From positions 806,001-870,000 of the forward strand of contig NZ_CP050902.1 of the NCBI RefSeq assembly GCF_012272695.1: a stretch of DNA of 64,000 nucleotides, given 5' to 3'. How positions within the stretch are numbered: position 1 is the stretch's first letter; the number at the start of each line of letters is the position of its first letter. Under the pieces are notes generated by a model that saw only the letters and a list, made by a program, of their open reading frames with translations, was not told the DNA's origin and made no database searches. The translations under genes and the position numbers were made by a program. This document shows positions 6,800-8,841 of the stretch, one piece after another. The stretch is from Nocardioides sp. JQ2195 (GTDB lineage: Bacteria; Actinomycetota; Actinomycetes; Propionibacteriales; Nocardioidaceae).

Positions 6800-6818
6800 C
6801 TCCACCCCACCCCTGATG

Positions 6819-6975
6819 CGCGAACGGGCAACTCTTGCTGTACGAACGGGCAGTTGTTGCTGCGCGAACGGACAGGTGTTGCTTCGTCGCGACAAGAGTT
6901 GCCTGTTCGAAGGGCAAGGATTGCCCGTTCGCGACGCAACGATTGACCGTTCGCGACGCAACGATTGACCGTTCG
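6819..6975. repeat. Inverted array of ~23-bp units after guaA
   Basis: Three forward units of the type CGAACGGGCAACTCTTGCT (6821, 6843 and 6864 regions) face four reverse units of the type GCAACGATTGACCGTTCG (ending at 6975), so the block is a large degenerate palindrome. It fills the junction between guaA and the minus-strand gene remnant that follows. Related units recur after purH at 48257. It has no coding content or transposase. Confidence 0.7.
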
Positions 6976-7074
6976 TCAGTCGAGGAGCTCGGTGCGGTCG
7001 GAGGCGAGCAGGACGGCCCCCACCAGGGATGCCCGCTCCCCGAGGACCCGGGCCTCGACAGAGGTCGCGGCGGG
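6976..7074 (-). pseudogene. Possible C-terminal remnant of a ROK-family sugar kinase or repressor
   Basis: Read on the minus strand, the last 29 codons before a TGA encode TSVEARVLGERASLVGAV followed by LLASDRTELLD. This resembles the C-terminus of ROK-family glucokinases or repressors (LG-x-A-x-x-GA-x-LA pattern). No upstream ROK domain is in frame; between 7075 and 7230 the frame is arginine- and proline-rich with no family signature, and a neighbouring frame looks equally plausible, as after a frameshift. I treat it as decayed coding sequence. Chance similarity cannot be excluded. Confidence 0.3.
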
Positions 7075-7227: not shown

Positions 7228-7281
7228 TAGACTTCACGGGCGTTCGGGCCCCGATCCGGACCTTTCCGAACGGATCGGAGG
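7228..7281 (+). promoter_or_regulatory. Promoter and switch-like leader of the HTH/ECF-S gene
   Basis: TAGACT at 7228-7233 is identical to the guaA -10 box and predicts a start near 7240. The roughly 50-nt leader can form CGTTCGG 7241-7247 with CCGAACG 7266-7272, or CCGATCCG 7251-7258 with CGGATCGG 7271-7278. The two stems share 7271-7272 and exclude each other. The second runs into the ribosome binding site GGAGG (7277-7281) 7 nt before the GTG. The inverted repeat could equally be a DNA operator for the encoded HTH domain. Confidence 0.45.
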
Positions 7282-7288
7282 TGCATCC

Positions 7289-8419
7289 GTGGCACAGCAC
7301 GACCCCCGGATCGCCCCGCAGGACGTGGCCGACACGCTGGATGCCCTCGCCGCTCGGCTGCAGGAGCTCCGCGCCGCAGCCGGTCTGCCGTCGTACTCCG
7401 AGATCACCGTGCGCATCGCCCGCCAGCGACGCGCTCGCGGCGTCCCCGCCGAGGAGGCACGCCCCGGACGCACCACGGTCTACGACGCCTTCCGCAGTGG
7501 ACGGCGGCGCATCGATGGGGACCTGGTGGTCGAGATCGTCCGCGCGCTGGGCTGCACCGAGGACGAGGCTGCGGAGTGGGCGCGAGCCTGCCGGGTGGCA
7601 CGCGTGGCCGCGGCGGGGAGCCCGGGTGCGGTCACCGGTGAGGACCGGTGGAGCGGGCCTGTCATCGAACCGGCGGGGGAGACCGTGGCGACCGTCTCCG
7701 GCACGGCGGCCGACGAGACGACGGGGGCCGACGAGACGACGGGGGCCGACGAGACGACGGCGTTGTCGCCCGGGGCGGGCCACCCGGACGGCGGGCACCC
7801 CACGCCGCTCGCCGCGATGGCCTCGCTCCGAATCGCTCACCGGTCACGGGCGGCGATCCTGGTGATCTGCCTGGCGCTGAACCTGACCGGGCGCGTCGTC
7901 GTCGACACGCTCGGCCTCTCGATCTTCCTCGACATGGTCGGCACGGCGACCGCGGCGGTGGTCCTCGGGCCGTGGTGGGGCGCCCTGGTCGGAGTCGTCA
8001 CCAACCTCGCGGGTGGCGGACCGGGCAGGTGGACCATCTCGGCGCCGTTCGCCCTCGTGAACGTGGTGGGCGCGCTGGTCTGGGGGTACGGCGTACGCCG
8101 GTTCGGCTTCGGGCGGAGCATTCCGCGCTTCTTCGTGCTCAACGCGATCGTGGCGCTCGCGTGCACGCTGGTCGCCGTCCCGATCCTGGTCTTCGTGTTC
8201 GAGGGCCACACCGGACACGGTTCCGACGACGTGATCGAGAGTCTGCGCAGGATCAGCCATCACCTGGGCATCGCGGTCTTCACCGGCAACGCGATCGCCT
8301 CGCTGGTGGACAAGCTGATCAGTGGGTTCGTCGCGCTCGCTGCCGCGGAGACGATCCACGGGCGGATCCGGAGCCGCGCAGCACCGCGCTCCGACACCCC
8401 GTCGGCGGTCGATGCCTGA
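7289..8419 (+). CDS. Helix-turn-helix domain fused to an ECF-transporter S-component-like membrane domain
   Basis: 376 residues. Residues 15-103 look like the XRE-type HTH domain common in actinobacteria (helices around YSEITVRIA and TTVYDAFRSGRRRIDGDLVVEIVRALG). Residues 104-185 are a polar linker with three ADETTG repeats. Residues 186-355 hold about five or six hydrophobic segments with a LGLSIFLDMVGT - LGPWWGALVG - TNLAGG pattern resembling substrate-binding S components of ECF vitamin transporters. Such S components normally have no DNA-binding domain. It may be a membrane-tethered regulator sensing a small molecule, or a transporter subunit that regulates itself. No ECF ATPase or T component lies in the window. 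The GTG start at 7289 is chosen for GGAGG 7 nt upstream; a longer frame exists but has no conserved residues. Confidence 0.6.
   Translation: MAQHDPRIAPQDVADTLDALAARLQELRAAAGLPSYSEITVRIARQRRARGVPAEEARPGRTTVYDAFRSGRRRIDGDLVVEIVRALGCTEDEAAEWARACRVARVAAAGSPGAVTGEDRWSGPVIEPAGETVATVSGTAADETTGADETTGADETTALSPGAGHPDGGHPTPLAAMASLRIAHRSRAAILVICLALNLTGRVVVDTLGLSIFLDMVGTATAAVVLGPWWGALVGVVTNLAGGGPGRWTISAPFALVNVVGALVWGYGVRRFGFGRSIPRFFVLNAIVALACTLVAVPILVFVFEGHTGHGSDDVIESLRRISHHLGIAVFTGNAIASLVDKLISGFVALAAAETIHGRIRSRAAPRSDTPSAVDA
7709..7762 (+). repeat. Three tandem 18-bp coding repeats (ADETTG)
   Basis: Three near-identical copies of an 18-bp unit encode ADETTG-ADETTG-ADETTA in the linker of the HTH/ECF-S protein. 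The units keep the reading frame, so copy number could vary between strains and change linker length. Confidence 0.85.
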
Positions 8420-8568
8420 GGTGACACCCCCGCGGCCCCCGCAGGCACGACCGCCAGAACGAGTACCCCCTTCCTAACCCGCTCGCAGCCGGCCGTGCAC
8501 CCACTCCGAACGACTCCGAACGCACAGGGCAACGCAATCCGGCTGCATCCTGCTGTCAGGATGGGCGC

Positions 8569-8841
8569 ATGAGCGTTGACGTGCAGGACAACAAGGACCA
8601 GAACCGCTTCGAGGCCCGGATCGACGGCCAGGTGGCCGGCTTCGCCGAATACGTGCGCGAGGGGGACCGGATCACGTTCACCCACACGGAGGTCTCGGTC
8701 GAGGGCCAGGGGGTGGGGTCTGCGCTCGCCCGGCAGGCCCTCGACGCGGTGCGTGCGGAGGGCGGGCTGGTCGTCGTGCCCCGGTGCCCGTTCATCAAGG
8801 GGTGGATCGAGAAGCACCCCGACTACCAGGACCTGCTCTGA
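8569..8841 (+). CDS. GNAT-like N-acetyltransferase, YjdJ type, 90 aa
   Basis: Short one-domain member of the YjdJ/COG2388 group of GCN5-related acetyltransferases. Residues show the core EVSVEGQGVGSALARQALDAVRAEGGLVVVPRCPFIKGWIEKHPDY, including the acetyl-CoA-binding loop (QGVGSAL, corresponding to Q/RxxGxG/A) and the typical C-terminal CPFxxxWxxxHPxY. The substrate is unknown for this group. Length matches the family. It stands alone; the 8420-8568 gap before it contains no obvious feature apart from a weak -10-like sequence near the start. Confidence 0.85.
   Translation: MSVDVQDNKDQNRFEARIDGQVAGFAEYVREGDRITFTHTEVSVEGQGVGSALARQALDAVRAEGGLVVVPRCPFIKGWIEKHPDYQDLL

Follow-up and report, generated by a model that had tools for sequence, protein, structure and literature searches.

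The fused gene and its protein domains

The window, which is the whole 64,000-nucleotide stretch of the Nocardioides sp. JQ2195 genome analysed here, contains a fused gene lying between guaA and a small acetyltransferase gene (Table 1). The original prediction of an N-terminal DNA-binding domain and a polytopic S-component-like domain in one frame was borne out, and roughly 50 of the 197 genomes in the Nocardioides group have kept the fusion.

Table 1. Positions of the features at the locus, numbered from the first letter of the window
Feature	Position	Strand	Remarks
Two overlapping inverted repeats of the leader	7241..7278	+	Overlap proposed operator 1; stems not kept as RNA elements in relatives
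Proposed operator 1, CCGGACCTTTCCGAAC	7256..7271	+	Tandem direct repeat, 10-bp period; ends 17 bp before the start codon
Ribosome-binding site GGAGG	7277..7281	+	Read from the sequence
Fused regulator gene	7289..8419	+	GTG start, 376 aa, single open frame: HTH, linker and six-helix S-component fold
Helix-turn-helix (HTH) domain, probably XRE-type, residues 10-109	7316..7615	+	AlphaFold2 model, conservation in relatives, structural match
Linker, residues 110-183	7616..7837	+	Disordered, non-conserved; AlphaFold2 model and relatives
Three tandem 18-bp copies in the linker	7703..7756	+	Encode ADETTG, ADETTG, ADETTA; not kept in relatives
Membrane domain, ECF S-component fold, residues 184-364	7838..8380	+	Profile match, model and structural alignment
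Proposed operator 2, CCGAACGACTCCGAAC	8506..8521	+	Lies 47 bp ahead of the GNAT gene that follows
Small GNAT-type acetyltransferase gene (PF14542)	8569..8841	+	Candidate second target

The AlphaFold2 model of the fused protein, built on 38 homologues, had a mean pLDDT of 82.6 and consisted of two well-predicted domains separated by a disordered stretch at residues 114-165. The N-terminal half formed a helical fold with a pLDDT of about 95. This half had been predicted to be of the XRE type, and among known structures it was best matched by C.Esp1396I, an XRE controller (Z 6.9, rmsd 3.9, 74 aa); ClgR was also matched (Z 6.0, rmsd 6.8, 91 aa). The HTH_31 profile detected 12 of the 38 relatives at E below 0.01 and the window protein only at E 0.6. 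In the alignment of relatives, R61, T63, D66 and F68 were invariant; they lie around the recognition helix, the region where conservation of the HTH is strongest. The linkers of relatives were completely different from that of the window protein, in which three tandem ADETTG repeats had been predicted; three copies are indeed present, two of them exact and the third altered in its last residue. The same HTH subtype (approximately 50% identity) also heads NB-ARC/TPR (STAND) regulators of 800-870 residues in Nocardioides. These share only the HTH with the fused proteins, having a soluble NTPase/TPR part where the fused protein has its membrane domain.

The membrane half matched the NCBIfam model NF045596 (ECF_S_CD3073) with an E-value of 1.1e-26 and 93.5 bits, below the curated cut-off of 180 bits; judged by this profile, it is related to the CD3073 family without being a member. 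The residues common to both are N198, LD214-215, GT218-219, GP227-228 and DK341-342. The likeness extended to the fold, as the six-helix S-component fold was present in the model by structural alignment to solved S components. The closest was TmRibU (Z 16.7, rmsd 2.8, 156 aa), and the others were RibU (Z 15.3), FolT (13.6), BioY (13.6) and ThiT (13.3). A profile of the fused and stand-alone sequences also retrieved FolT in the PDB with an E-value of 1e-9. Foldseek with the whole model gave nothing at E below 0.001; its top nine rows were all S components with probabilities of 0.95-1. PF12822 matched 26 of the 38 fused proteins, and 5TM-5TMR_LYT (PF07694), the membrane sensor of LytS-type kinases, matched 16 of the 38 at E below 0.01, the window protein having no match to the latter.

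Distribution of the fusion and comparison with stand-alone relatives

In addition to the Nocardioides group, to which the loci L002 and L004 belong, the fusion was found in about 14 of 250 genomes of a second family, probably the Microbacteriaceae since locus L003 is from a Microbacterium MAG. When 63 membrane domains were placed in a tree, all 47 from fused proteins grouped together with support of 98/92, showing a single origin of the fusion. Inspection of 40 loci of up to 20 kb detected no conserved neighbour of the fused gene, and in none of these loci was EcfT or a nucleoside hydrolase found in the roughly 10 kb on either side of the fused gene. The fused gene is thus an orphan, found in many genome positions with no shared neighbours, and synteny revealed no target gene that the loci have in common. 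The adjoining guaA, which lay beside the fused gene in only a few relatives, was set aside as synteny. Between guaA and the fused gene, at 6814-6976, we also observed three copies of a GCGAACGGGCA...TTGCT unit spaced by 22 bp along with inverted copies forming 54-nt arms (74% complementary), which are distinct from the repeat described below. The original prediction had stated that no ECF A or T subunit is encoded in the window; this held for EcfT, and the genome search located three EcfT genes elsewhere, all in loci that have S and A genes of their own and one of them adjoining biotin genes.

CD3073-family S components are stand-alone proteins encoded in S-T-A operons, and in most cases a nucleoside hydrolase gene is a neighbour. 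Among the 16 stand-alone relatives read here, most adjoined EcfT and EcfA genes in this manner, and an IU_nuc_hydro gene was present in the cluster of 12. Downstream of one nucleoside-hydrolase/ECF operon, a multi-pass protein (L121:12305-13015) resembling a queuosine-precursor transporter was noticed by eye. The three stand-alone transporters closest to the fused clade, L137-L139, showed the gene order regulator, nucleoside hydrolase, S, A and A in the stretch examined. They share with the fused proteins most of the residues that otherwise seemed specific to the sensors (M216, W265, N334 and S338), and these residues probably mark the ligand pocket as they are kept in transporters. By analogy with these relatives, the ligand of the fused sensor is most likely nucleoside-like. 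The ligand class is drawn from the relatives, since no nucleoside hydrolase was found in the JQ2195 genome itself. The vitamin presumed in the original prediction was not borne out, the nearest stand-alone transporters adjoining nucleoside hydrolases.

The AXXXA motif in helix 1 of S components is the docking motif on EcfT (PMC11109136), and the AMVIA motif of FolT aligned with positions 192 and 196 of the fused protein. Both positions were occupied by small residues in 7 of 9 stand-alone proteins, but in only 5 of 40 fused proteins, indicating that the EcfT-docking small residues have mostly been lost in the latter (degenerate in 35 of 40). P192 was found in all nine stand-alone proteins and in none of the 40 fused ones, and position 202 was glycine in 9/9 of the former versus arginine in 29/40 of the latter. 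L137-L139 retain P192 and G202, which the fused proteins mostly lack. The window protein has V192 and A196, and thus lacks the pair of small residues of the AXXXA type.

A tandem direct repeat as candidate operator

The promoters of the fused genes have in common a tandem direct repeat, CCGRAC-N4-CCGRAC, with a 10-bp period. Enrichment of k-mers in these promoters did not exceed that in shuffles, and the gapped repeat was then seen by eye. A perfect repeat occurred within 150 bp upstream of 14 of 38 fused genes compared with 10 of 360 control promoters (p 4.5e-10), some of the controls being divergent neighbours that share the same intergenic region as a fused gene. The consensus was read from the same promoters as were used for this comparison, so that neither it nor the counts around the fused genes given below are wholly independent; independent support came from the gap specificity, the NB-ARC loci and a few genomes outside the discovery set. 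Indeed, enrichment was seen only at a gap of 4, other gaps giving at most three. Counted within 250 bp of the fused gene, the repeat reached a density of 2.0/kb on the upstream side and 0.6/kb on the downstream side, falling to about 0.005/kb at distances above 1 kb; about half of the fused genes had no perfect repeat within 250 bp. An extended pattern was found at 61 sites in 32 fusion-bearing genomes, of which 19, in 19 genomes, lay within 300 bp of the fused gene against 0.02 expected. In 12 fusion-free genomes, the pattern occurred 13 times versus 7-8 for the reversed control.

The NB-ARC/TPR loci with the same HTH carried the repeat as well. In 5 of 13 such loci (L106, L107, L108, L112 and L113), CCGAAC-N4-CCGAAC was located 51-84 bp upstream of the HTH. 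As these regulators share only the HTH with the fused proteins, CCGRAC-N4-CCGRAC is probably the operator of this HTH. Where a TAnnnT box was present, the repeat ended 13-30 bp before it, often 17-18 or 26-27 bp, a spacing as expected for a regulator that would bind at or just above the -35 region. No sigma-70 consensus promoter was found near the fused gene in the window. A possible -10 element, TAGACT, was noticed by eye at 7228-7233, and the position of operator 1 between this element and the start codon suggests repression at this site. The JQ2195 genome contained 10 matches to the repeat compared with 6 for the reversed control; a regulon outside the locus was rejected, the remaining eight matches being at background level.

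Several other occurrences were recorded. In one sub-lineage, the repeat was also found at L041:13625, L069:5510 and L072:8846, in front of large genes resembling Ser/Thr kinases in the vicinity of the fused gene, which may be extra targets. At L065:9513, downstream of the fused gene, it precedes a gene whose secreted product contains RTX-like GGxGxD repeats. An HTH relative interrupted by two in-frame TGA stops (G133:C8:3701720-3702347), with the repeat about 84 bp upstream, is probably a decaying copy.

The proposed mechanism and its alternatives

We consider it likely that the fused gene encodes a membrane-bound one-component transcription regulator, with an ECF S-fold sensor that has ceased to operate with an ECF motor and with candidate operators beside its own gene. 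Computation showed that the fusion exists and arose once, that the membrane half has the S-component fold and has mostly lost the docking residues, that the gene is an orphan, and that an operator-like repeat goes with the HTH; DNA binding, the ligand, the direction of signalling and activation or repression are inferred. In the proposed mechanism, a small nutrient, most likely nucleoside-like, would bind the S-fold pocket from outside, and the conformational change would pass through the flexible linker to the cytoplasmic HTH. The HTH would bind the tandem 10-bp repeats at operator 1 beside its own gene and, in this genome, also operator 2 before the next gene. The protein would therefore control its own expression and a local target.

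The leader could also be taken as RNA. The original prediction assumed a switch formed by two mutually exclusive stems, the second reaching the ribosome-binding site, in which case the S-component gene would be riboswitch-like or RNA-attenuated, the stems controlling translation and the HTH being incidental. As a description of the sequence the stems stood: the first (7241-7247 CGTTCGG / 7266-7272 CCGAACG) and the second (7251-7258 CCGATCCG / 7271-7278 CGGATCGG) are both perfect, they overlap at 7271-7272, the second touches GGAGG, and an exclusive pair of this kind was unusual, arising in 16 of 4000 dinucleotide shuffles. Neither stem, however, was kept in the relatives. The covariance folding proposed for the leader paired only 44-47% of the cells across homologues and gave no covariation, shuffles freely reaching the observed level. 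The fold energy of the leader was unremarkable (z -1.5), no Rfam riboswitch family matched, and an RNA switch was rejected on these three grounds. What is conserved there is the DNA direct repeat, operator 1 falling inside the region of the stems. The copies found in relatives are often located 13-30 bp ahead of a TAnnnT box rather than within the leader RNA. We regard control by the RNA as highly improbable. A less remote, though still unlikely, alternative is that the repeat belongs to another regulator, the fused HTH acting elsewhere or its fold serving, for example, to bind protein. The absence of a perfect site at about half of the fused genes and the sites near some other genes would fit this view. 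On the other hand, the repeat follows the HTH into the unrelated NB-ARC/TPR architecture and follows the fused gene across genome positions without shared neighbours, and conservation within the HTH is highest around the recognition helix.

The fused protein might still transport. As a bifunctional transceptor, it would import its ligand through an ECF module borrowed from one of the three EcfT loci and regulate transcription when unloaded, an idea consistent with the pocket signature common to L137-L139 and with the three EcfT proteins encoded in the genome. Each of these loci, however, has its own S gene, the helix-1 docking positions are degenerate in most of the fused proteins, no EcfT lies near any fused gene, and a tethered DNA-binding domain should hinder toppling. 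Such a dual role thus appears improbable, slightly more so than a foreign owner of the repeat. Of the two functions offered in the original prediction, the one-component membrane sensor is supported as the best reading. A self-regulating transporter subunit is the less likely of the two, given the degenerate docking positions and the lack of an EcfT gene alongside.

There is precedent both for one-component regulators in the membrane and for histidine-kinase receptors with an S fold. As in transmembrane transcription regulators such as CadC (PMC10269533), the fused gene places a DNA-binding domain and a membrane domain in one polypeptide, and the arrangement is conserved in the relatives. Most of those regulators are single-pass, whereas the sensor here is a six-helix, transporter-derived domain; the main text of a survey of the class does not mention ECF or vitamin sensors (PMC10269533). 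The 5TMR-LYT sensor histidine kinases BtsS and YpdA (PF07694) likewise use the S-component fold for sensing, with a helix 1 lacking AXXXA (Partipilo and Slotboom 2024, PMC11109136). Their output is a C-terminal kinase, in contrast to the N-terminal DNA-binding domain of the one-component fused protein, and their extra membrane helix H0 was not seen in its model. From the CD3073-family S components, the fused protein differs in its score against the family model, the presence of the HTH, the absence of EcfT alongside and the loss of docking residues. No description of an HTH fused to an S component was found in the literature searched, which is weak evidence.

We lean, by a narrow balance, towards the fuller view in which the binding subunit of an importer lost contact with its motor and was turned into the sensing part of a membrane-bound one-component transcription factor. 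This factor would respond to a nucleoside-like nutrient outside the cell and act through tandem 10-bp operators flanking its own gene, and within one genus its DNA-binding module would have been passed between membrane-bound and NB-ARC sensors. A link between S components and receptors has been proposed from folds, the receptors there being histidine kinases (PMC11109136). In the present case, little sequence distance separates the transport branch from the sensing branch, and L137-L139, the nearest transporters, make a good comparison pair with the fused sensor. They share its presumed pocket and differ from it at the helix-1 docking positions, which opens the change from transporter to receptor to a direct test. 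Since both an operator and a ligand class have been predicted, the regulator itself should be easily tested at the bench.
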